Source of the DNA: a virus
Reading direction: 5' to 3' (one strand)
Virus record (IMG/VR): IMGVR_UViG_3300006802_014512
Span: 1-23,537 of that record
Length of the DNA: 23,537 bases
A program made the translations under genes and the position numbers. Positions within the stretch are counted from its first letter, which is position 1. Each line of letters opens with the position of its first letter. Under the pieces are notes generated by a model. That model was not told the origin of the DNA, ran no database searches, and saw only the letters and a list, made by a program, of their open reading frames with translations. Below are positions 5,522 through 21,808 of the stretch, piece by piece.

Positions 5522-5563
5522 GCTTCGATCACTCAACAACATCACTTGTTCACCACTAACAAC

Positions 5564-5875
5564 ATGAAACGCATTGCTTTGCTTTGGCTTATCTGTTGCT
5601 CTGCTGCGCAAGCTCGTGAAGTTACTGCAACTGTGTACGACCCTTGGTATCACGGACGCACAACATATTGTGGGCAGACGTATCAACATTGGGGCGTCTC
5701 GGCGGCGCATCCATGGTACGAATGTGGCACGAAGCTCACAATCTCACACAAAGGTCGTACACTTACTGTCCCCGTGACAGATCGCTGTGAGTGTAATTCT
5801 GTAGATCTCTCAGCAGGCGCTGCCTACAAACTCGGCGTGCCACTTGACGGTATTGCCACGGTCAAAATCCACTGA
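5564..5875 (+). CDS. Exported RlpA-like double-psi beta-barrel protein
   Basis: This 103-residue protein has a Sec signal peptide (MKRIALLWLICCSAAQA, cleavage expected after AQA). A small domain follows with GxxTYCG-like spacing, a TVPVTDRCEC segment (Asp73) and NSVDLSAGAAYKLG, the hallmark of the RlpA/expansin-like double-psi beta-barrel. Bacterial RlpA proteins bind or cleave denuded peptidoglycan glycan strands. The family's SPOR domain is absent, as in other short phage or secreted versions. The extra cysteines (CG, YECG, CEC) may form disulphides in the periplasm. I chose ATG 5564 because it gives an exact signal peptide. It probably acts on the host envelope during lysis or modification. 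Confidence 0.75.
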   Translation: MKRIALLWLICCSAAQAREVTATVYDPWYHGRTTYCGQTYQHWGVSAAHPWYECGTKLTISHKGRTLTVPVTDRCECNSVDLSAGAAYKLGVPLDGIATVKIH

Positions 5876-6750: not shown

Positions 6751-6938
6751 ACCCTGAAGAGCTGAGTTTTACGGAATGGGGTCACTTAATCGATCTCATC
6801 GACACGGAGATTGCGGGATGCGATACAAAGCTATCCCGCTTTCCCTTAGAAACCCTGCGTTTTAAGCTGCGTCAGCACCAGGATGGGCAGCTGATGCCGT
6901 TCAGATTTAACGTATATCCAAAGGCTATACAGAACTAA
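6747..6938 (+). CDS. Small unknown protein, TTG start
   Basis: Starting at TTG in a TTGA overlap, the frame gives 63 residues: MNPEELSFTEWGHLIDLIDT, then a central helix and the basic end VYPKAIQN. There is no in-frame ATG until residue 50, so TTG is the best start. Its TAA shares bases with the stop of the convergent AP2-domain gene. The family is unknown; small helical proteins of this style are common in phages. Confidence 0.55.
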   Translation: MNPEELSFTEWGHLIDLIDTEIAGCDTKLSRFPLETLRFKLRQHQDGQLMPFRFNVYPKAIQN

Positions 6939-7507
6939 TCGACATCGTTTAATACAGCCTCGTCGCCAAAAGCTTCGAGTGCAGCTTCATTAAACGCACG
7001 GGCTGCTTCAATCGAAGTTTTATAGGAGGCGATGTACTTCTGCTTCCCATCGAGCGTAATAACAGCCCGATAGCGATTGGCTGTTTTATCAAACTGAACG
7101 CCTCTAAAACCAGTGCCGGGATTTACCTTATTGGGTACTCGATGGGGATCTAATCGATCACTTCCAAACTCACTCAGCGGCACAATCGGACGGGCCAAAA
7201 TGTCAACGCCTTGGATCAAATAAACGAGGATTCGAAACACCTCGTAGGTTCTACCTTGAAACGACGTAACGTAACCGCCCATGCAAGAATCTTGATAACC
7301 CACGCCTTCACCAACGCGGCGAATTCCAATTGGCCGTTTATACGCAAGGCCTGAGTAAGTAGACCAATCGACTACCCAAAGCTCTTTCATTACTTCGTAG
7401 AGCTGAGTCGGGTTGGGTTCCTTCTTGCCTGACACCGGTCTGTGATGTTCAACTTGGTATCGGCTAAGCTTACCCTCATTGCGTTCGCCTAAACGCGCCT
7501 CCGTCAC
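6935..7507 (-). CDS. AP2-domain protein, probably mobile
   Basis: This 190-residue protein has a C-terminal AP2/ERF-type DNA-binding domain (about 133-190: GFRGVQFDKTANRYRAVI, then KYIASYKTSIEAARAFNEAA). In phages and cyanobacteria this domain usually accompanies an HNH nuclease in mobile endonuclease genes. Here the N-terminal part has a YEVFRILVYLIQG segment where HNH proteins have a 'VHRLVY..hG' stretch, but I see no convincing His-Asn-His motif, so nuclease activity is doubtful. It starts at GTG, is opposite to the surrounding genes and is convergent with 6747-6938, sharing stop bases. This orientation fits insertion of a selfish element into the operon. A second AP2 gene begins at 23389. 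Confidence 0.75.
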   Translation of the reverse strand: MTEARLGERNEGKLSRYQVEHHRPVSGKKEPNPTQLYEVMKELWVVDWSTYSGLAYKRPIGIRRVGEGVGYQDSCMGGYVTSFQGRTYEVFRILVYLIQGVDILARPIVPLSEFGSDRLDPHRVPNKVNPGTGFRGVQFDKTANRYRAVITLDGKQKYIASYKTSIEAARAFNEAALEAFGDEAVLNDVD

Positions 7508-7701: not shown

Positions 7702-8201
7702 ACATCACACTTCGAGCTCTCACCGTCGTGGGAGTTCTGGCGCTGACCACGCCTGCTCAAGCCGAGAGCATCAGTATCCAACGGCTCAAAGAAGCTCTAG
7801 CAAGTACCGGCACTACGGTGGTCTACAGAAAATGTGGGCCTGAACACGCACGGATGCAGGGCTTCTACGAGTTCGACAAGCAGCAAAAGCTGGATCAGAT
7901 CACCGTTTGTACGAACAACGTTGACGTCTCAGCCGACCGCTTCCATTGGGAGGTGCTGGCTCACGAAGCGACTCACGCCGTGCAGATCTGTAAGAAGGGC
8001 GAGACTTTGTTCGTCCCCGAAGAGCATCCCTCCATCCTCAGGGAGATCAGGGAGTATGCTCCTCATTATGACGAGATACTGCGTACTCGTTACACCGGAA
8101 CTCAGCGGGTTAAAGAACTCGAAGCGTTCTGGATGGAGCTACAACCTCAAGATGATGTAATTGACTACATCGCCAACGCTTGCAAATCCGACAACCAATG
8201 A
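7698..8201 (+). CDS. Exported HEATH-motif putative metallopeptidase
   Basis: The 167-residue product has a Sec signal peptide (MNITLRALTVVGVLALTTPAQA). It also has a gluzincin-type zinc motif, AHEATHAVQ (His89, Glu90, His93), preceded by a strand-rich segment with two Cys residues. Downstream acidic residues (SILREIREYAP or the ELEAFWMELQ region) could supply the third ligand; I cannot decide which. It is most likely a periplasmic zinc peptidase or a catalytically inactive relative. ATG 7698 is chosen for the signal peptide. It overlaps the next start by 4 bp, so it is co-translated with the SH3-like and L,D-transpeptidase-like genes in an exported set. Confidence 0.65.
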   Translation: MNITLRALTVVGVLALTTPAQAESISIQRLKEALASTGTTVVYRKCGPEHARMQGFYEFDKQQKLDQITVCTNNVDVSADRFHWEVLAHEATHAVQICKKGETLFVPEEHPSILREIREYAPHYDEILRTRYTGTQRVKELEAFWMELQPQDDVIDYIANACKSDNQ

Positions 8202-8473
8202 AACTCCTCGCTTCAATCCTTTCTGTGGCCACGCTGGTAGCGGCGGCTTTACCCGCGCACGCACAATATGCGATGACGTGCACGAGAGACCGCTACTCCT
8301 CTGTGAATCTGCGCAACGCTCCGTCGAAAAGTGGTTACGTTGTGGCGTCAGTCCCGAACGAGAGCTACATCCGCGCTCTCAACTGGGTGTGGGGTAATGA
8401 CGGGATGCGTTGGTATCGGGTCGAATACTCCGGCCTGGTCGGTTGGATGAGAAGCGATTACCTCTGCCGCTGA
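8198..8473 (+). CDS. Exported SH3b-like protein
   Basis: This 91-residue protein has a signal peptide (MKLLASILSVATLVAAALPA, cleaved near AHA). A bacterial SH3 (SH3b) domain follows: VNLRNAPSKSGYVVASVP, then WYRVEYSGLVGWMRSDYL. SH3b domains bind peptidoglycan peptides or target enzymes to the wall. The protein has little besides this domain, so it is a binding module rather than an enzyme. It is joined by ATGA overlap to the metallopeptidase gene and lies next to other exported proteins. Cys residues near both ends may form a disulphide. Confidence 0.75.
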   Translation: MKLLASILSVATLVAAALPAHAQYAMTCTRDRYSSVNLRNAPSKSGYVVASVPNESYIRALNWVWGNDGMRWYRVEYSGLVGWMRSDYLCR

Positions 8474-8478
8474 GCACA

Positions 8479-8865
8479 ATGCGTAAGGTATTTATCGGTG
8501 CTGCTGGTTTGGCAGCGTTTGTATTTGCGTGCATCTTAGTGGGGGTTGTCCAAACCGTTGTCGGTTCGATGATTCGATCGAACGAGCCGGACAAACCAGG
8601 CAAACTCGAATTAGATCCTCAACTGAAATCCAAGCAGGAGTGGGAAGCAAAGCATCCCAAGCCAACTGAAGCTAAAGCTGAGGAACCAAAAGTCGAAGAA
8701 AAGCAACCAGCTCCGGTCGAGAACGATGCGCCTTTGGCCGCGTCTCAACCTGAATCCTATAGGACTCCAGCACCGGCTCCGATCAACTCGCTTGGTCCCG
8801 GCAACTTTGACATGCCTCAGTATTACGCTCCCACTCCCGGACCAACGGGTCCTGGCAATCTTTGA
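8479..8865 (+). CDS. Membrane-anchored proline-rich protein
   Basis: This 128-residue protein has an N-terminal hydrophobic helix (IGAAGLAAFVFACILVGVV, residues 5-23). A long hydrophilic region follows, rich in Pro, Ala, Lys and Glu (KPTEAKAEEPKVEEKQPAP), and then a Gly/Pro tail (PAPAPINSLGPGNF, PTPGPTGPGNL). It reads as a membrane anchor with a flexible periplasm-spanning linker, like TonB-type or spanin-like linkers. With no catalytic domain it may tether the neighbouring wall-active proteins or bridge membranes during lysis. ATG 8479 gives the clean anchor. Confidence 0.7.
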   Translation: MRKVFIGAAGLAAFVFACILVGVVQTVVGSMIRSNEPDKPGKLELDPQLKSKQEWEAKHPKPTEAKAEEPKVEEKQPAPVENDAPLAASQPESYRTPAPAPINSLGPGNFDMPQYYAPTPGPTGPGNL

Positions 8866-8867
8866 CC

Positions 8868-9611
8868 ATGAACAAAGCAATGATCGGCGCAGTCGCAGCA
8901 GCAGTGGGTGTCAGCGCCTCTGTTCTTATCAATGGCGCAGGGACAATCCTGGCGCATCACAAAGCATCTCAAGATCACATAAACAACTTGATGCTCGAGC
9001 AGCCGCTCACACAAGCTCAAGGTATTGATCCAGCACAAGCTTTACCTCCCGGTGCGCTTCCGTTAGATGCCACGCCTGAGCCGGGCTTCATCCCGGAGGC
9101 TGGATCGACGAAGCTGCAGATGCAGCTCAAGCCAGGAGCTTCGTTCATCAACGACAAAGGTCGGCCAATGGCGAGGTTGGTTTTGGTGAAGAGTAAAGAG
9201 TTTGTTCGAGGGACTAAGGATCCCATTTGGGATCTTCGCCTTATGGCAGGCGATCAAGTTCTCGGCTCAATGCCTGCCCTGACTGGCCGAGCAAATAAAC
9301 AGACGGCAGATAGGAACACTCCCGGAAACAAAGCGCCGCTGCCTAAAGGAACTTATGGGATCGATGCTTACGGAATTGCTGGACCTCCCTTTTCTGATCC
9401 AGAGTTAGGTAAAGGCTTCTGGGTTCCTATCGTGCCGTTATTCTCCACACGGCGCTCAGACCTTGGGTTTCATCAGGATCCAAGTTGGGGCAAGATGAAC
9501 GGCGAATCGGGAACCAGCGGATGCATTGGTCTTGAATCAGCAGACGCAACAGCAAAGCTGGTGGAGTGGATCAAACATTTCCGCATCAAAACTCTGACTG
9601 TTGAAACTTGA
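8868..9611 (+). CDS. L,D-transpeptidase-like (YkuD-type) envelope protein
   Basis: The 247-residue protein has an N-terminal hydrophobic segment (MIGAVAAAVGVSASVLINGA). A C-terminal catalytic-type domain contains LGFHQDPSWG (His202) and SGTSGCIGL (Cys219), the H...(S)xGC pattern of YkuD L,D-transpeptidases. Upstream 'LPKGTYGIDAYGI' is the usual strand before it. L,D-transpeptidases make 3-3 cross-links or attach proteins to peptidoglycan. The spacing to Cys is normal, so it could be active. A TTG at 8862 overlapping the previous stop is possible; I prefer ATG 8868. In a phage its job could be wall modification or, if reversed, cleavage. It closes the exported cluster. Confidence 0.75.
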   Translation: MNKAMIGAVAAAVGVSASVLINGAGTILAHHKASQDHINNLMLEQPLTQAQGIDPAQALPPGALPLDATPEPGFIPEAGSTKLQMQLKPGASFINDKGRPMARLVLVKSKEFVRGTKDPIWDLRLMAGDQVLGSMPALTGRANKQTADRNTPGNKAPLPKGTYGIDAYGIAGPPFSDPELGKGFWVPIVPLFSTRRSDLGFHQDPSWGKMNGESGTSGCIGLESADATAKLVEWIKHFRIKTLTVET

Positions 9612-9879: not shown

Positions 9880-9909
9880 AAAGCTACTGGTTAATACGGT
9901 AGCTTTTTT
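9880..9909 (+). terminator. Intrinsic terminator
   Basis: AAAGCTACTG (9880-9889) pairs with CGGTAGCTTT (9897-9906), ten pairs with one G-T, around a 7-nt loop, followed by a T run to 9909. It ends the exported-protein unit and insulates the promoter at 10008. Confidence 0.85.
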
Positions 9910-10007
9910 AATGTGCATGAGGTGCAATTTGTGTAAACAAAGAGTAAATGATTAAAGATTTTATTTATCAAATTGAGAGCCATGCTACCTTTCCATAAGT
10001 TACATGC

Positions 10008-10036
10008 TTGACAAGCCGCCCTAAAACGTCTACATT
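10008..10036 (+). promoter_or_regulatory. Sigma70-type promoter of the MoxR-VWA operon
   Basis: A consensus -35 (TTGACA, 10008-10013) and a -10 of TACATT (10031-10036) are separated by exactly 17 bp. Transcription would start near 10043, leaving about 32 nt of G-poor leader before the ATG at 10075. It is the clearest promoter in the window. Confidence 0.8.
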
Positions 10037-10074
10037 GCTCAGCAAGGCACAGCCTTCACCTACATCACACCATC

Positions 10075-10500
10075 ATGACCAAGATCACCCAAGTCCACCT
10101 AACCCAACTCGGCCGTGTCGCAGCCGAAGCATGGGATGAATGCGACCAGGCTCTCGACCAGCTGAACCAAGGGTTCGGAGTCGTCTACGAAAGCGCCCGT
10201 GACAACCTGACCAAGGACATCAACGAAGCAAGCAAGGAAGGCCTCGACCTCAGCGTCTTCTCCGGTAAGAGCAGCTTGTTCAAGTACGAAGAGCTTCGGA
10301 CGAACATCGTCGTCAAGGTATCGAAGCTGCCCACGCCGCACGAAAAACTCCTGAAACTCGACGAGCGAATCGCGGAGATCGAGCGCACACTCAAAGCTGC
10401 AAAAGCTGAGCGCAAGTATCTGATCGAGCGGTTCAGCATCAAAGGAGACATCGAGCTCGTCACCGACAAAGTCAACCTCGCTTTCACCCGTATCAAGTGA
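10075..10500 (+). CDS. Coiled-coil protein, first gene of the MoxR-VWA operon
   Basis: This 141-residue, largely helical protein starts MTKITQVHLTQLGRVAAEAW. A charged coiled-coil in its second half (EKLLKLDERIAEIERTLKAA) has leucine/isoleucine heptads. It has no catalytic motif. It is the promoter-proximal gene and is coupled to the next gene by a GTGA overlap, which suggests the two products are made in fixed ratio and may bind each other or the ATPase. I do not recognise a family. Its leader (CTACATCACACCATC) follows the A/C-rich pattern seen before other genes here. Confidence 0.7.
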   Translation: MTKITQVHLTQLGRVAAEAWDECDQALDQLNQGFGVVYESARDNLTKDINEASKEGLDLSVFSGKSSLFKYEELRTNIVVKVSKLPTPHEKLLKLDERIAEIERTLKAAKAERKYLIERFSIKGDIELVTDKVNLAFTRIK

Positions 10501-11678
10501 CCTACCTGATTTCCTGCAGCATCAGCTCCCGCGTCCGTCAGACCGTGGGTATCAAGTTCGATGATCTCAAGCTCCCTGCCCAGACCATCGACCAACTCAA
10601 GTCTCAGAGCACCGGCACGCTGCGCCCCCAGCTTTCTAACTCTCTCAAAACAGAGCTGGATGCTCTGCGCGCTCTGCAGCGTGAGATGTACGACGAGTGC
10701 ACCATCAACTTCGGAGACTCACACTTCGTCACCAGGGCCTACTTCGCCGAGGCGCAGCGGCGAATCAAAGAGATCAAAGTAAAGGCCCAAGAAGCCAATC
10801 AGCGGCTGGCTTCTCTGTGGGACAGCGAGTTCGATCACTGGTGCAAAACCGTAGAGAACATGCTGCGCCCACTCTTCCGTGATGAACAGGAGTATCAGCT
10901 AGCAAAGGAGGCGTACCTGCGCGTCTTTCCGCCACGCAAGTCCTACAAAGATCCGATCCGCGTGGCTGTAGTGGGTCCACTGCCCATCTCCTTGACGCCT
11001 GTAGATCATCCTGCTGACGGTGACGTTGAGCAAATGATCGCCGCTGAGTGCTACGTCAACACGGCGCAAGTGATCGAAGCGGCAAAGGAAGGCGCTGCTG
11101 ATCGAGCCTTACAAATGGGAGCGGAGCTGCTCGATGATTTGGATGTACGGAACGCAGCTAAGGTCGGCAAAGCCCAAACCGGTAGCGATCTCAAACGAGG
11201 TTCCTGGCAGCTAACAGCAGACCGCCTGCGGTTGATCAGCGATTCAGTTCCTGGCTTTGAGAAGCTCAGCACTTTTGCTGACACTCTCCTAGATGCAGGG
11301 CGCCGGATGCAGTCAGCTGACCGAAAAGTCCGCGATGACGCTGTCAAAACCTTCCAAGACGTTGGCCTTGAGATCCGTAAGGAACTTCAGTCCATCGTCG
11401 AAAGCCGCGACGAATCCAAAGGCCTCGAAGCTCTGCAAAAATCGTTGGCACTCTCCAGCCAATTTAAAGATCTGTGCGAGAGGATCAAGAACGCCGAGGC
11501 TCTCGACGAATTGCAGGAGCTATCTCAAATGGCTGAGGTAGAGCAAAGCATCTACCAACAACGAAGCAAACAGCTAACTAGGTTGATTGCCACGCGGCGA
11601 GAACTGATTGAAGCCGGTGGGCGAGACCTCGGGCAAATGCTCGAGGAAGTGCAGACCCTCAAAGAAGTTGACTTCTGA
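10497..11678 (+). CDS. DUF3150-like helical protein
   Basis: The 393-residue protein starts at GTG within the previous stop (GTGA). Its N-terminal half has the layout I recall for DUF3150, a family often found beside CobS/MoxR-type ATPases in phages and proteobacteria: a basic SISSRVRQ start, an aromatic YFAEAQRRIKEIK helix, then a VFPPRKSYKDPIRVAV segment followed by PLP. The second half is a long helical array (DLCERIKNAEALDELQELS) ending in TLKEVDF. No enzyme motif is visible. I infer a structural or adaptor role with the downstream ATPase and VWA protein. The family call is by pattern only; the operon position is firm. Confidence 0.6.
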   Translation: MTYLISCSISSRVRQTVGIKFDDLKLPAQTIDQLKSQSTGTLRPQLSNSLKTELDALRALQREMYDECTINFGDSHFVTRAYFAEAQRRIKEIKVKAQEANQRLASLWDSEFDHWCKTVENMLRPLFRDEQEYQLAKEAYLRVFPPRKSYKDPIRVAVVGPLPISLTPVDHPADGDVEQMIAAECYVNTAQVIEAAKEGAADRALQMGAELLDDLDVRNAAKVGKAQTGSDLKRGSWQLTADRLRLISDSVPGFEKLSTFADTLLDAGRRMQSADRKVRDDAVKTFQDVGLEIRKELQSIVESRDESKGLEALQKSLALSSQFKDLCERIKNAEALDELQELSQMAEVEQSIYQQRSKQLTRLIATRRELIEAGGRDLGQMLEEVQTLKEVDF

Positions 11679-11693
11679 TCCAACATCACAACC

Positions 11694-12878
11694 ATGACTG
11701 ACCTTTTTAAATCTCTCCAGACCTTCCGCGCTCACCTGAACGACGCTCACCTCGAACGCGAGGAAGTGATTGATGGCCTGCTTGCGACTCTAATCTCCAA
11801 GCAAAATGCGTTTCTGCTTGGCGAGCCTGGCACAGGTAAGTCAGATCTCGTTCGCAGCATCTGCAACGGAATCGAAGGTGCAAACTATTTCGGATACTTG
11901 CTCACGCCAACGAGCGATCCGAGTGAACTGTTTGGTCCTGTTGCAGTGACCAAACTGTTGAACGATGAGTATCAACGTGACGTTGAGGGCTATCTCCCAT
12001 CGGCTCACATCGCGTTCACCGACGAACTCTTCCGTGGGTCTTCGGCAATCCTGAACTCCCTACTGACTTTGCTCAATGAGAGGACGTTCAACAACGGTAA
12101 GGAAACAATCCAAACCCCGATCCAATCGATTGTCGCAGCAACGAACAGCTGGCCGGAAGAGGAGTCGCTGCAGGCTTTCGCTGACCGTTTCCTCTTCCGA
12201 CCGACAGTTCCTTTCCTGAGCAAGAGCGCCAGCAAGCGGACCTTGGACATGTGGGCTGCTGGTCTACAGCCACGGCCAGAGGTAGGTGTGCATCTAACCC
12301 TCGATCAGTTGTTCGAGCTGCAGGACAAAGCCCAAAGCTTGAATGTCACAGACGATTTCCTCGACAAGTTTGGGGAGCTGTGGTCGATGCTCGAGACTCG
12401 TGGCTTGAAGATCAGTGATCGACGTCGAGTTCAGATCATTAAGTTCCTCAAGGCTTGGGCTCTGGTTCAAGGCGACGATGAGCTCTACGGGGAACACATG
12501 CACAACTCTCTTGTGCACATCGTCTATAGAAACGAAGACGATCAGGCCACCATTAAAGAGTGTCTGATGCAGGTATGTCCCACGGCGGAGAAATACTTTG
12601 CCGACGCGAAGAGGGCAGCTTCAGGAATCATGACCGAGTTCCAAGCCAACGCTGTCAAATTGAGCGGCCGTTCGCTTTCTGATCTCAACGATTACGTCAA
12701 ACAGTGTCGACGTTATCGACAGGACATTCTGAAGATCCAACAGAAAGTAACTGAAGCTCTGGACGGAGATCGCTACAAGATGTCTGTCTCTGTGCGTCAG
12801 AAAGGAGTTCAGCTCAACCGACAGCTGGAAAAGTTCAGCGAAAGCATCGCACACACGATCGCGGAGATCTCTAACTAA
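11694..12878 (+). CDS. RavA-like MoxR-family AAA+ ATPase
   Basis: The 394-residue protein has Walker A GEPGTGKS (43-50), then SDPSELFGPVAV and GYLPSAHIAFTDELFRG with Walker B IAFTDE (106-111). LNSLLTLLNERTFNNG, the sensor-1 region VAATNSWPEEE and FADRFLFR follow. This order is that of MoxR ATPases, and the 'ELFGP...GYLP.A.I.F.DE.....AILN.LL...NER.F.NG' run is closest to RavA. MoxR ATPases act as chaperones with VWA partners; RavA pairs with ViaA. The C-terminal third is helical and carries no LARA-type domain that I can recognise. It follows a CAACATCAC leader and is coupled to the VWA gene by TAATG. CobS, common in cyanophages, is a related alternative. Confidence 0.85.
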   Translation: MTDLFKSLQTFRAHLNDAHLEREEVIDGLLATLISKQNAFLLGEPGTGKSDLVRSICNGIEGANYFGYLLTPTSDPSELFGPVAVTKLLNDEYQRDVEGYLPSAHIAFTDELFRGSSAILNSLLTLLNERTFNNGKETIQTPIQSIVAATNSWPEEESLQAFADRFLFRPTVPFLSKSASKRTLDMWAAGLQPRPEVGVHLTLDQLFELQDKAQSLNVTDDFLDKFGELWSMLETRGLKISDRRRVQIIKFLKAWALVQGDDELYGEHMHNSLVHIVYRNEDDQATIKECLMQVCPTAEKYFADAKRAASGIMTEFQANAVKLSGRSLSDLNDYVKQCRRYRQDILKIQQKVTEALDGDRYKMSVSVRQKGVQLNRQLEKFSESIAHTIAEISN

Positions 12879-14425
12879 TGGACAAGCGCCAGGAAATTCT
12901 CAGGCTGAACGACAATCAGCCGCTCACCCTCGCGTGCTCAGCACTCGCAGACTTCCTGTGGGAGGACTTCATTTGTGATGCCAAACCCCAGGTCAAGTAT
13001 CTGGCTGATCACTACAACATCAACCAACTGTCTCGCTTCGGGAAGGAAATCTTCGAGCGTCTTTATACGGGCGACGATGTTAACTGGCTGGTGACACTGG
13101 ACGCGTGGGAAGAGTATTTCCGGGCAAAGCAGAACGGCGCAGGCGCAGTGTATCCACGCGGCTACAAACCGGAGGATGCCCTGTGGTACTCACTCATGGA
13201 GGACCTTTCAAACTCCGCCGCATGGAGTGACCTGATGGTCATGTGCGCTGGAGATCAGTGGAACTCAGGCAACACAGCAGTCAACATCATCAACGAACTC
13301 TCTGAAGTTCTGGAAGAGTTGATCGAGGATCTCGAGCAACTAATCCCGGAAATGCTCGGCGCCAACAGAGAGAAGCTGCAGAAACTGCGGGAACAGTTCC
13401 AAGAAGCTAAGGAAGCAGGGAACGATCTAGAAGCTGCCCACTTGCGTGAAGAGGGTAAGAAGCTCGGCGCCGTTGCGGAATCTCATCTGTTGGATGCCGC
13501 TGAGAAACTGTCCAGTCGCATTGATGACATCATCGACAAAGCCAAGGAGGAGACCTCGCAGACCAACGACAACATCGGCAAACTTCACGGCAATCAAGCT
13601 GGCACCGGCTCACACAAAAACAATCTTGCGGAGAAGAAACAGCTAGCTAAAAGACTGAAGAACAACCCCAAGCTCAAAGCAATCGCTCAACGGTTGGGCT
13701 TTCTTCGGAGAATCTGGATTGAGCGTCAGCGAGCCAGAAAAGCCAAAGCCAGCTTCGAAGCAATCGCTGGCGCTGAGTTCAGCAACGAGGTTGTGAAAGC
13801 ATTCCCTAGTGAGCTGGCCTTAGCTGCCACGCCGCAGGGTCGCGCTCTGTTCGCTCTGAAGTACAGCCAACGGAATCTGCTCACTAAAGATTACGTCGCT
13901 CACCGCAAGGATCTGGGCAAAGGTCCCATCGTCATGTACGTGGACGTCTCGGGTTCCATGTCTGGTGACGCGGAGCTTTGGAGCAAAGCGATTGCAATGC
14001 TGATCGCCGAAGAAGCCCTCAAGCAAAAGCGTGCCGTACAGATTCACCTGTTCGACACGCGCATCGCTGATTCAGTTTCACTGAGCTCAGACCGTAAGGA
14101 CAACGACGAGCTACTCGATTTCGTAACTACCTGGCATCTAGGGGGAGGTACGTCGTTCAATGCGGTTCTCGCCCACGCGGTGACCAGTGCGAAGATCACG
14201 AACAAATCAGATGTGCTGATGATCACCGATGGAAACAGTGAGGTCCATGATCACACGATCCGGAACCTGAATCAACTCAAGGACCGTACAGGGGCGATGT
14301 GGTCAACGATCTGCATCGGACTTGAGGGACAGTCGATCCTTCATCGATTCAGCGACGAGGTTCACACTGTGGACTTATCCAAGACAGCCGAGAGCATCGA
14401 TTGCATTCAGAAGTGCATTAGATGA
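12878..14425 (+). CDS. ViaA-like von Willebrand A domain protein
   Basis: The 515-residue protein has a helical N-terminal half with long coiled-coil segments (about 140-230: VLEELIEDLEQLIPEMLG, REQFQEAKEAGNDLEAAH), a basic linker, and a C-terminal VWA domain. The domain's metal-ion-dependent adhesion site is complete: DVSGS (Asp356, Ser358, Ser360), GGGTSF (Thr425) and MITDGNS (Asp451). The same plan, a helical N-terminus followed by a terminal VWA, is found in ViaA, the partner of RavA, and in CobT-type partners of CobS. It shares a base with the ATPase stop (TAATG), so the two are probably made stoichiometrically. The expected role is as substrate adaptor and stimulator of the ATPase. Confidence 0.85.
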   Translation: MDKRQEILRLNDNQPLTLACSALADFLWEDFICDAKPQVKYLADHYNINQLSRFGKEIFERLYTGDDVNWLVTLDAWEEYFRAKQNGAGAVYPRGYKPEDALWYSLMEDLSNSAAWSDLMVMCAGDQWNSGNTAVNIINELSEVLEELIEDLEQLIPEMLGANREKLQKLREQFQEAKEAGNDLEAAHLREEGKKLGAVAESHLLDAAEKLSSRIDDIIDKAKEETSQTNDNIGKLHGNQAGTGSHKNNLAEKKQLAKRLKNNPKLKAIAQRLGFLRRIWIERQRARKAKASFEAIAGAEFSNEVVKAFPSELALAATPQGRALFALKYSQRNLLTKDYVAHRKDLGKGPIVMYVDVSGSMSGDAELWSKAIAMLIAEEALKQKRAVQIHLFDTRIADSVSLSSDRKDNDELLDFVTTWHLGGGTSFNAVLAHAVTSAKITNKSDVLMITDGNSEVHDHTIRNLNQLKDRTGAMWSTICIGLEGQSILHRFSDEVHTVDLSKTAESIDCIQKCIR

Positions 14426-14431
14426 CATTGT

Positions 14432-14461
14432 GCCCTTAGCAGCCTGCTAGGGGCTTCTTTT
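14432..14461 (+). terminator. Intrinsic terminator of the MoxR-VWA operon
   Basis: GCCCTTAGCA (14432-14441) pairs with TGCTAGGGGC (14445-14454), ten pairs with one G-T, around a 3-nt loop, then TTCTTTT. It begins six bases after the VWA stop codon, closing the unit that starts at 10008. Confidence 0.8.
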
Positions 14462-14940: not shown

Positions 14941-14988
14941 CGGCTCTTCAAAAACTTGCTATTCTTTTTCTTGTCAACCGTCACCGGT

Positions 14989-15783
14989 ATGGATTTCGCT
15001 TTCAAACTCAAAGGCCTTGAACTGACTGCCACGGAAGCTAAGAGCCTCCTGAACGCAGCTGACCAAAAGACAGCGTTTGTCATTGACCTTGAACAACACG
15101 TCGACGCCAAGATCCTCAGCGCCCCTGATCTGTTTGCCCTGAGCATCGAGAAAAAGGATCCGACGCTGGCAGCACTGGCATCGAGGTTGGCGTTCTCCAA
15201 GCCCGAGAGCAAGCCCGTTAAAAAGGCGCAGCTGTCGGTCAAAACGCCGCCTGTGCTCCGGCTGATTAAAAAGAGCGATCTGATTCAGGAGTGCCTCGAG
15301 CACCCGACCTACAAAACGGTCGGAGCCGCGATGATCCTGGGCAAAGTCGACAGCAATGAGTTTCGGGCGCTGCGTGACATCGCTTGCCACTGGGTCAACC
15401 AGTATTGGAACGACGAAAAGTATCCAGATAAATCGCTGCTCTTTAAAGGTTTCAAAAACGATCCAAAGGATGTTCGTCGCCTGGTTCCCATCGAGAAGGA
15501 GCACAACGTACTGCGCAGCGAGACTTACTACGTCTGCCCGACTTATCTAGCGATCACCGCTGGCCTGAAACTGCTGCAGCAATACGGCTTCGTGACGACT
15601 GAAATCCGGTGGTCACTCGGAGCACGGAAAGCCGTCTCGGATCCTCGTGCCCAATCCACGCGACGTAAATACTTCGTCTTGAAGTTGACCGACGCTGGAA
15701 TGCAGGTCAAACAGGAATGGGGAGACCTTGAGCGGTATATCAGCAACTTCTGGCGCACGAGAGTCTCAGAAAAGTCTGCATAG
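14989..15783 (+). CDS. Unknown protein with winged-helix-like C-terminus
   Basis: The 264-residue protein begins MDFAFKLKGLELTATEAKSL. A first helical part (about 1-70) is followed by a Lys/Pro linker (SKPESKPVKKAQLSVKTP). A second domain ends in TRRKYFVLKLTDAGMQVKQE, which looks like the wing and last helix of a winged helix-turn-helix (compare '..Y.LT.aG...'). DNA binding is thus plausible but inferred. I chose ATG 14989; the in-frame extension to 14956 (MLFFFLSTVTG) looks like non-coding leader. A strong terminator follows 30 bp after the stop. Confidence 0.65.
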   Translation: MDFAFKLKGLELTATEAKSLLNAADQKTAFVIDLEQHVDAKILSAPDLFALSIEKKDPTLAALASRLAFSKPESKPVKKAQLSVKTPPVLRLIKKSDLIQECLEHPTYKTVGAAMILGKVDSNEFRALRDIACHWVNQYWNDEKYPDKSLLFKGFKNDPKDVRRLVPIEKEHNVLRSETYYVCPTYLAITAGLKLLQQYGFVTTEIRWSLGARKAVSDPRAQSTRRKYFVLKLTDAGMQVKQEWGDLERYISNFWRTRVSEKSA

Positions 15784-19777: not shown

Positions 19778-20359
19778 TTGGGCCTCGAACTGGGAAAAAG
19801 TCAATATCAGTTGTTGCTGCGAAAAACAAAACAACGACTGCCGATACCCATAACGGCTAACGATACTGCCCACGCGCAGGCGCAAGCTGAAGACATCTGC
19901 AGGGCGCTCGATGGTGTGCAGTTTGAGCTGACTTACGGTGACTGCAAAGAGACACCGCTATCGGAGTTATTTAAAAAACTGGCTGCAAACGATTTCACGC
20001 ACGGTCAGTGTTGGCTTTGGAAAGGATCGTTCTGTAATAATGTTCCTTGTGCTTATGTGTTCAACAAACGATTGTATATCCGCAATGTAATTTTAAAGTA
20101 CTTAGACATACCTAAAGACGACGCAATCGCCAAACCTTCGTGTTCATGCAAAGCGTGTATTAACCCCTATCACACTGCATACTCCTCGAAAACTAAAAAG
20201 AATCAGAAGCTCGGTGCGGGGGACGATCAACTGCTCTTAGCCTTTCTGGGCCAAGGGATCTCGGTCTCCCAGATCGCCAAGGCGCTTAAAGTTCACCGCT
20301 CGACGATTTACCGGAAGCTCAAAGATGAACGTTTTTGTTCTGGGTCTTCGCGTCACTGA
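19778..20359 (+). CDS. HNH-like protein with C-terminal helix-turn-helix
   Basis: The 193-residue protein contains CWLWKGS (Cys78) and CSCKACINPYHT (Cys124, Cys127, Asn129, His132). This pattern belongs to phage HNH homing-endonuclease-like proteins ('CWLW.G...C.NP.HL'). The expected central His is not obvious, so catalytic competence is uncertain. It ends with ISVSQIAKALKVHRSTIYRK (161-180), a resolvase-type helix-turn-helix. HNH plus HTH is a common selfish endonuclease layout. It starts at TTG, with no ATG nearby, three bases after the preceding stop, and overlaps the SSB gene by 35 bp. Confidence 0.6.
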   Translation: MGLELGKSQYQLLLRKTKQRLPIPITANDTAHAQAQAEDICRALDGVQFELTYGDCKETPLSELFKKLAANDFTHGQCWLWKGSFCNNVPCAYVFNKRLYIRNVILKYLDIPKDDAIAKPSCSCKACINPYHTAYSSKTKKNQKLGAGDDQLLLAFLGQGISVSQIAKALKVHRSTIYRKLKDERFCSGSSRH

Positions 20360-20969
20360 CGAATGCCAGGAAGCAGACGACACCGTCAACGTCCTAGCCG
20401 AAGCACTTCCTTCTAACGACAAACGCGTTGCCAGCAAAGTTCAGGTTCTTCAAAAGAAGGATCACTACGTTGGCAAACTGATGGCTGATCTCAAAAAGGA
20501 TCAGACATTTCTCGCGATCGGTCCCACGCGGGCGACTCCCGACGGCGTTCTGCAGATGCAGGCAATGCTGATCGTGACCGAAGCCAACTTCCAAGATCTT
20601 CTCGCAGTCAACTTCTTTGTTGCAGCTGGTGGTCTTGGACCTAAGTCTGAACAGGTTGAACTCACCGATACCACGGTGACAAACCGTTCACTTGCTTGGC
20701 AAGACGAAGGTCAGGAGACGCAGTGGTTCAAGCTGACTGCTTGGGGCGATCTGTCCAAACAACTTTCCGATCTTGCGCCTGGTACTCCAACAGTCGCTGT
20801 GGGTCGTGTGTCTACTTCTGAAAAAGACGAAAAGTCCTACTTAAACTATACGTTGGATAAGGTCCTGTACCTTCCCAAAACCCAACGCTCCACTCCGAAA
20901 AAAGCCGCTGATCCCGACAAAGGAAAAGTTTCCGCTGCCGCTCTCGGTTCTATCGACTTCTCGCTCTGA
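20325..20969 (+). CDS. Single-stranded-DNA-binding-like protein
   Basis: The 214-residue protein ends in an SSB-type OB-fold segment: NRSLAWQDEGQETQWFKLTA (Gln133, Trp134, Phe135) with TVAVGRVSTSEKD and LNYTLDKVLYLP strands. The N-terminal half shows another strand-rich unit (FVLGLRVTDECQEADDT), so two OB-like halves are possible. The C-terminus is GSIDFSL rather than the usual DDDIPF tip of bacterial SSB. It should coat single-stranded DNA for the polymerase. It starts inside the end of the HNH-like gene and is followed 20 bp later by the gene at 20990. Confidence 0.75.
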   Translation: MNVFVLGLRVTDECQEADDTVNVLAEALPSNDKRVASKVQVLQKKDHYVGKLMADLKKDQTFLAIGPTRATPDGVLQMQAMLIVTEANFQDLLAVNFFVAAGGLGPKSEQVELTDTTVTNRSLAWQDEGQETQWFKLTAWGDLSKQLSDLAPGTPTVAVGRVSTSEKDEKSYLNYTLDKVLYLPKTQRSTPKKAADPDKGKVSAAALGSIDFSL

Positions 20970-20989: not shown

Positions 20990-21808
20990 ATGGTTTTTAT
21001 CGCTGGCCAATTCGCCGAGGACGAAATCCTCTGCAACTGCCCCCCGCATACTCTGCGCATCGACCTTCAGCAACGCCGCTGGAAGTCTGATGTCGATTCT
21101 GAAGCTGCGATCGTCGACGCTAACGGCAACGGCATTCCGCTGAGCTTCATCCTCCTGGGCTTCACTCCGTTTTACGGAAACCTGGGGATGCGTCACCAAG
21201 AGGAGTTCATCCGAATCGCCTACATCGGTGTCTCTCCCAACCACAGGCTGCTGCCTCCTCGCTGCGTGACCTCGACTGTTATCAGCGGCAAGACCTCCCA
21301 GAAGGGCTTCATCAGCTACTTCCAAACGCTCTACAACAACAGGATCAACTGTGCCTCTGTTGTTACGACAACCAAATTCGTAACCAAATCCTTCAATGAA
21401 CGTGATCCGGTCACTGGCGCAGATGGCGCGAAGATCAACTACAACGCTCTTGAGTTCAGCGATCGACCAGCTGAAACAGAGGAGGAGAAGAAGCTCATTG
21501 CTGACGTTAATGAGTGGCTTCAGTCCACAGGAGCGTCGTCGGTGGCCAACGCTCTTCGGTCGACCATCCCAGGATCCCAGTTGGTGGAACTACCCCTCGG
21601 AGAGGACCACGCCAAAATTAAAGCTCTCTTTGAGGCCAACAACGCGCTTCCGGCACCGAGTCTTGCAGCACTTCCTGCGGAGGCCAATCCGCTGACAGTC
21701 AAGGCCGAAGTGGCTGAAGAGACTGCACCTCCCTCTGCCGAACCCAAGAAGAAGAAAGCTGTGGAGCTCACTCCAGAGCAAGCCAAGACTCTTGGTATAG
21801 ACTTCTGA
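20990..21808 (+). CDS. Unknown replication-neighbourhood protein
   Basis: The 272-residue protein starts MVFIAGQFAEDEILCNCPPH. It has a strand-rich N-terminal domain of about 150 residues with a Tyr/Arg-rich part (FYGNLGMRHQEEFIRIAYIG), an acidic Ala/Pro-rich linker (ALPAEANPLTVKAEVAEETA) and a terminal LTPEQAKTLGIDF. The linker plus a short conserved-looking tip is similar in layout to SSB proteins, and its end resembles the SSB-like neighbour's GSIDFSL. It may be an SSB partner or recombination mediator; this is inference from position and layout. A terminator follows. Confidence 0.65.
   Translation: MVFIAGQFAEDEILCNCPPHTLRIDLQQRRWKSDVDSEAAIVDANGNGIPLSFILLGFTPFYGNLGMRHQEEFIRIAYIGVSPNHRLLPPRCVTSTVISGKTSQKGFISYFQTLYNNRINCASVVTTTKFVTKSFNERDPVTGADGAKINYNALEFSDRPAETEEEKKLIADVNEWLQSTGASSVANALRSTIPGSQLVELPLGEDHAKIKALFEANNALPAPSLAALPAEANPLTVKAEVAEETAPPSAEPKKKKAVELTPEQAKTLGIDF

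Follow-up and report, generated by a model that had tools for sequence, protein, structure and literature searches.

What does a tailed phage gain from keeping a MoxR-type AAA+ ATPase and a VWA protein together with two helical proteins of its own? The question is raised by a four-gene unit in the IMG/VR virus record IMGVR_UViG_3300006802_014512, analysed here as one stretch of 23,537 bases (the window). The unit encodes a small coiled-coil protein (p1), a DUF3150-like protein (p2), the ATPase and the VWA protein (Table 1). We show here that uncultured tailed phages of one clade, each roughly 80-90 kb in size, carry it as a core element, and that it sits inside their DNA-replication gene block. 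Its products very probably belong to the MoxR-VWA class of machines, and we give an even chance to the reading that this machine uses p2 as an adaptor in remodelling the complexes of replication or recombination. Pairs of this kind are common across cells, plasmids and phages, but among viruses the only studied case that we found, in Acidianus two-tailed virus (ATV), concerns tail growth. A machine of DNA metabolism with a tail peptide as its ligand would provide a concrete hypothesis for the genes that mirror this unit beside recombination genes in clinically important conjugative elements (SXT, IncC), where they have so far been described as core and of unknown function.

Conservation and architecture of the unit

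Scanning viral contigs with an alignment of the ATPase gave 80 loci, in which co-occurrence was counted where the contig has room. Profile searches found the order p1-p2-ATPase-VWA throughout. The VWA gene is present in 78 of 78 loci, and p1 and p2 are present in 67 of the 68 in which the contig reaches far enough, so the association of the two helical proteins with the ATPase/VWA pair, claimed in a preliminary description of this DNA, is conserved. The sole exception (L026) has the upstream room, the ATPase and the VWA protein, but neither p1 nor p2 within 6 kb. With dS saturated, the selection test can draw on no more than pN (nonsynonymous divergence) and approximate ratios. Comparing the window with L002, its closest relative, gives pN values of 0.08 (ATPase), 0.12 (VWA protein), 0.10 (p2) and 0.25 (p1), against 0.09 for polA. 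Judged by these values, the unit is under purifying selection with no sign of fast turnover, and its ATPase, VWA protein and p2 are similar to polA.

The four-gene unit is real. All four genes lie on the same strand, and the open reading frame (ORF) coordinates bear out the four-base GTGA and one-base TAATG overlaps noted earlier. The tight coupling read from these overlaps is present in the window but is not strict across the clade, where neighbouring genes may overlap or stand up to about 970 bp apart. In L018-L021, L023-L025, L056 and L059, spacings of about 780-970 bp between p2 and the ATPase or between the ATPase and the VWA gene suggest that extra genes land between the genes of the unit without breaking the set.

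The unit had also been described as insulated, with a promoter in front and terminators on both sides. The stem of the upstream terminator is maintained through paired changes in the two nearest phages (L002 and L003). The promoter is probably real, because both hexamers are identical in the window and in these two phages while the spacer differs, although the consensus scan alone, with 2 promoter-type matches found against 2.7 expected, scores at chance level. In contrast, the sequence of the downstream hairpin is maintained in neither L002 nor L003. Insulation is thus half supported, because the downstream terminator is not conserved and the coupling is not general.

Table 1. Features of the four-gene unit and of the two tail-bearing neighbours, in window coordinates
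Feature	Position	Strand	Description	Basis
Upstream intrinsic terminator, 5' of unit	9880..9906	+	10-bp stem and T run	Consensus scan
Probable sigma-70-type promoter	10008..10036	+	TTGACA-17-TACATT	Consensus scan
p1	10075..10500	+	141 aa, helical/coiled-coil, without known family	ORF
p2	10497..11678	+	393 aa, DUF3150-like, GTG start, acidic C-terminal tail ending Asp-Phe	ORF
MoxR AAA+ ATPase, RavA-side	11694..12878	+	394 aa	Pfam, profile search, tree
VWA protein with MIDAS	12878..14425	+	515 aa, ViaA/CoxE-like VWA at C-terminus	Pfam, ViaA model
Terminator-like hairpin, 3' of unit	14432..14454	+	Not conserved in relatives	Consensus scan
SSB-like protein	20325..20969	+	Ends [IL]DFSL	Pfam SSB, E 0.0017, below cut-off
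o20990	20990..21808	+	272 aa, adjoins SSB-like gene, ends LGIDF; candidate client or partner	

The ATPase and the VWA protein

The ATPase matches bpMoxR (PF20030, 6.5e-56) and AAA_5 in Pfam, of which the bpMoxR match is not specific, as the ATPases of the Moorella and CL131 phages match PF20030 too. The ELFGP, GYLP and NER.F.NG motifs reported for it were found, and its Walker A, NER, sensor and Arg motifs are conserved among homologues. In a tree of 81 ATPases the phage clade (support 93/90) groups with RavA-type proteins while remaining outside the cellular RavA group, and the RavA side is split from CobS, NorQ/CbbQ and the DUF3150-linked ATPases at 100/100. This split agrees with the earlier assignment to a MoxR-VWA machine of RavA rather than CobS type. 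It also places the ATPase outside CobS, and no cobalamin family was found among the window proteins scanned, so neither phylogeny nor context points to a CobS-CobT pair in cobalt chelation.

RavA is likewise the only match in a family-profile search of PDB sequences, and the sequence match to it stops near RavA residue 268. By sequence, however, the ATPase is RavA-like and not RavA, because both proteins score far below the equivalog cut-offs, with 129 against 681 bits for RavA and 60 against 500 bits for the ViaA model on the VWA protein. The pair is thus RavA/ViaA-like, as it had been named, but not RavA-ViaA itself.

The VWA protein matches VWA_CoxE in Pfam (6e-10) and, over 290 residues, the ViaA model (2.3e-16). 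The complete metal site ascribed to it, a metal ion-dependent adhesion site (MIDAS) formed by Asp356, Ser358, Ser360, Thr425 and Asp451, lies at exactly these positions and is invariant in 44 of 44 homologues. Neither phmmer with the protein nor a PDB profile search with its alignment returned anything significant.

The two helical proteins and their C-terminal tails

From its predicted fold and a weak profile match, p2 appears to be a remote DUF3150-like protein, in line with its first description. Its AlphaFold2 model (predicted local distance difference test score, pLDDT, 84) retrieved predicted phage proteins in Foldseek, one of them named DUF3150 (E 3.3e-4, prob 1.00, template modelling (TM) score 0.40-0.50). 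An hhalign comparison of p2 with nine DUF3150 proteins aligned 121 columns, from the N-terminus onwards, at P 6.7e-4, whereas reversed and unrelated control profiles gave P 0.025 or weaker. It is also encoded beside MoxR AAA+ and VWA genes and carries an acidic, aromatic-ended tail, as many DUF3150 proteins do. Other searches with p2 were negative: it has no significant Pfam or PHROG family, no relative by tblastn against the phage collection and nothing significant in a PDB profile search with its alignment, and neither p2 nor its homologue in L004 matches the Pfam DUF3150 model (PF11348).

For p1, AlphaFold2 predicts two long helices (residues 6-54 and 90-123; pLDDT 92.5), with no Pfam or PHROG match for the sequence and no significant fold match for the model. 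PDB fold searches with the p1 and p2 models returned generic helical matches only (Z 8.1 or lower). Two candidate identities were rejected, namely that p2 or p1 is a form of DUF6744 (hhalign probability <1%) and that p1 is the counterpart of the ~120-aa gene upstream of plasmid MoxR, to which it has no similarity.

Asp-Phe (DF) is the C-terminal pair in each of the 67 distinct p2 sequences. Over the last 12 residues the acid fraction is 0.30 against a basic fraction of 0.03, and this stretch has low confidence in the model. The only other family among the neighbours in the window that ends in DF is o20990, whose terminus is kept in 7 of 7 distinct homologues (90-96% identity in the nearest relatives). 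The adjoining protein, similar to single-stranded DNA-binding protein (SSB), ends in Ser-Leu in 7 of 7 sequences, and its [IL]DFSL end is found in four phage records. We regard the p2 tail as a candidate ligand for two reasons: a MIDAS needs an acidic residue from its ligand, which in Rea1 contributes the sixth coordinating acid (PMC6624252), and the tails of SSB proteins are established sites of interaction (PMC9917605). DUF3150 proteins of gammaproteobacterial elements mostly have acidic tails with aromatic ends, and acidic-aromatic tails are also found in the IncC cluster on Bet (GSYY), Exo (TFYW) and a 302-aa protein (HFF). The possibility that o20990 is a RecT/Bet homologue found no support.

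Genomic setting

Four near-complete phage records (85-87 kb) show the unit running in the same direction as polA, SSB, o20990, an exonuclease gene and a D5-type primase gene, the last of which lies 14 to 19 kb from p1. The opposite strand carries the endolysin gene and, at least 27 kb away from the unit, the genes for terminase, portal and major head protein. The unit thus sits inside the DNA-replication gene block of these phages. Between the VWA gene and polA, all four records encode a 275-aa protein (14956-15783 in the window) with 60 distinct homologues and no known family, which may be part of the same operon.

Relation to known systems

The closest parallel lies in conjugative elements. 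A 2009 paper pointed out a cluster of MoxR and VWA genes in pCAR1, ORF100-103, with relatives in R478, Rts1, SXT and R391 (PMC2642839), and DUF3150-MoxR-VWA sets occur in SXT/R391 integrative and conjugative elements and in IncC, IncT and IncP-7 plasmids, usually with ssb, RecT or exonuclease genes close by. In an SXT-like island and three plasmids the set stands beside ssb, Bet/RecT and exonuclease genes; on one of these, a Proteus plasmid, RecT and an exonuclease are nearby and ssb is not annotated. Like the phage unit, the sets of pCAR1, SXT, R391, IncC and IncT combine a MoxR/CbbQ ATPase, DUF3150 and VWA in one cluster, and the DUF3150 protein has an acidic, aromatic-ended tail as p2 does. 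In the plasmids a gene of about 120 aa stands upstream, as p1 does here, although the two are not similar. However, the plasmid ATPase is on the CobS/NorQ side, often with CbbQ_C, whereas that of the phage is on the RavA side; the plasmid VWA protein is CobT-like or generic rather than CoxE/ViaA-like; and the gene order is ATPase-DUF3150-VWA in plasmids but p2-ATPase-VWA in the phage.

E. coli RavA-ViaA resembles the phage pair in that the phage ATPase is on the RavA side with RavA as its only solved relative, and the VWA protein matches the ViaA model. It differs in that the phage ATPase is about 100 aa shorter and the phage unit has two extra obligate genes. RavA itself has a LARA domain between its AAA+ and triple-helix parts, and the cellular pair is known for its binding to LdcI, complex I or fumarate reductase. 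Adjacent or linked MoxR and vWA genes are also known from other tailed phages, namely 0305phi8-36 (orf66/orf63), the group 2.2 jumbo phages, Aphanizomenon phage CL131 and Moorella phage MTATph1, although in some such pairs the partner of MoxR is a second-subunit gene rather than VWA. No relatives of p1 or p2 were found at the CL131 and MTATph1 loci. The CL131 pair is directly followed by a sliding-clamp gene, and MTATph1 has DUF6744 upstream instead of p1 and p2.

DUF6744-MoxR-VWA clusters of Bacillota and Myxococcota are like the phage unit in having a RavA-side ATPase, a VWA protein and a third protein encoded upstream, but their DUF6744 has no profile similarity to p2 or p1. They form a separate conserved cluster in Paenibacillaceae (L102, L108, L109, L112, L118, L121) and occur also in Myxococcota (L107, L126, L141), besides MTATph1.

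Annotation or earlier papers already cover the MoxR-VWA pairs of phages as well as the DUF3150 sets of plasmids. As far as could be found in open-access papers, what is new is the combination of a RavA-side ATPase with a new p1 family and its fixation in a phage clade, as well as the link between the phage and plasmid kinds and the tail motif; 'DUF3150' gave no match in these papers.

Possible targets of the machine

A target in replication or recombination is favoured over the virion shell because the unit lies inside the DNA-replication gene block, and we consider it about as probable as all other targets together. The separate linkage of DUF3150-MoxR-VWA to ssb, RecT/Bet and exonuclease genes in conjugative elements and the sliding-clamp gene behind the CL131 pair speak for it as well. 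Composition, gene order, intact motifs, universality in the clade, position in the replication block and the DF tail are direct readings of the sequence. Assembly, ATP-driven motion, ligand and client are inferred, by analogy with NorQD, in which ATP drives a finger-in-pore twisting motion (PMC13036017), and with Rea1. The MoxR AAA+ motor would work with the VWA/MIDAS protein as co-chaperone and with two dedicated helical proteins, the DUF3150-like adaptor p2 and the small coiled-coil p1. The ATPase hexamer would rotate or pull the VWA protein, whose MIDAS metal would be completed by an acidic residue of the ligand. This ligand, or a docking peptide resembling an SSB tail, may come from p2 itself or from a client, for instance the DF-tailed protein encoded next to SSB. 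By hydrolysing ATP, the machine would then remodel or remove a nucleoprotein complex that takes part in replication or recombination of the phage DNA. Taken by itself, this tail mechanism is tentative and on the unlikely side.

A more general form of this idea, which we hold to be slightly more doubtful still, is that the machine is a nucleoprotein remodeller that reads a C-terminal acid-aromatic tail code. The DF end, which p2 has in common with the DF-tailed protein by SSB, would dock at the VWA MIDAS or in an SSB-tail pocket, and the motor would exchange proteins bound to single-stranded DNA during phage replication or recombination. The parallel set, with its different MoxR branch, would act likewise for conjugative elements.

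Several points weigh against a remodeller of replication or recombination complexes. The synteny in the four phages is a single observation, since they belong to one clade, and the place of a gene does not establish its function, because phage operons mix functions. The profile match between p2 and DUF3150 is weak (P 6.7e-4, hhalign probability 27%), and their likeness rests mainly on the N-terminal 130 residues and a fold with TM 0.40-0.50. The tails of the SSB-like protein and o20990 were counted in 7 sequences only. A Pseudomonas plasmid has a 3'-5' exonuclease near the set, but neither ssb nor RecT is annotated within 7 kb of it. Nor have the DUF3150-set genes shown a strong phenotype so far, because deletion of s067, s068 or s070 in SXT, genes assigned to the set by position and not by sequence, changes transfer 10-fold or less (PMC2791158). 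Finally, the published precedent in ATV is a role in tail assembly (PMC4124505).

This precedent underlies the main rival, namely that the MoxR-VWA pair is a virion-assembly chaperone that remodels capsid or tail proteins. The MoxR ATPase of ATV, p618, binds to virion proteins as well as to the VWA protein p892 (PMC4124505). The tblastn relatives include MoxR proteins of the ATV type, and a role in virion assembly has been proposed for the MoxR-vWA pair of group 2.2 jumbo phages (Iyer 2021; PMC7824862). However, the strand of the unit and its distance from the head genes speak against such a role. The vWA protein of the jumbo phages is fused to an N-terminal metallopeptidase, whereas the Pfam scan found no N-terminal peptidase family in the 515-aa protein here, and the DUF3150 relatives belong to conjugative elements, which make no virions. 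We therefore think virion assembly unlikely, though it comes not far behind the tail mechanism.

The preliminary description had offered either a dedicated remodelling machine or a defence or counter-defence device. While the first matches the MoxR-VWA class, the second, in which the unit would dismantle a host complex or defence assembly in host takeover, counter-defence or defence, is improbable, and there is no positive evidence for defence or counter-defence. MoxR-vWA couples do occur in predicted conflict systems (PMC7159879), and the bpMoxR family, shared by the phage ATPase with the MoxR-vWA-beta-propeller/VMAP systems, is named after one of these. Yet family scans recognised no beta-propeller, VMAP or effector family in the four proteins of the unit, and no PADLOC family scored above noise; matches to Cas11b (0.003) and LmuB (0.015) were rejected as helical noise. 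Dispensable arms-race genes usually come and go, whereas this unit occurs throughout the clade and changes slowly, with pN of 0.08-0.12 for the ATPase, VWA protein and p2, like polA.

Least probable of all is an insertase that provides a phage enzyme with a metal or cofactor, as CobST, NorQD and CoxDE do. Metal insertion or the activation of metalloenzymes is the task of several MoxR-VWA pairs that have been studied (PMC13036017), but no metalloenzyme client gene is linked among the scanned proteins of the window and the phage records, and the ATPase falls outside the CobS and NorQ groups.

Other features of the window

The product of positions 6179-6640 matches Kyano_Gp96 (Kyanoviridae Gp96; E 1.4e-25) and, because this is a cyanophage family, suggests that the phage clade infects cyanobacteria. 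Also 5' of the unit, small probable cell-wall proteins are clustered at 5546-5875, 8180-8473 and 8862-9611, with matches to a DPBB lytic transglycosylase-like family (2.8e-14), bacterial SH3 (3.8e-09) and YkuD L,D-transpeptidase (9e-07). An AP2-domain protein on the minus strand (6935-7507; 4.2e-06, below cut-off), with homologues of about 50% identity in L002 and L003, is perhaps a homing endonuclease.

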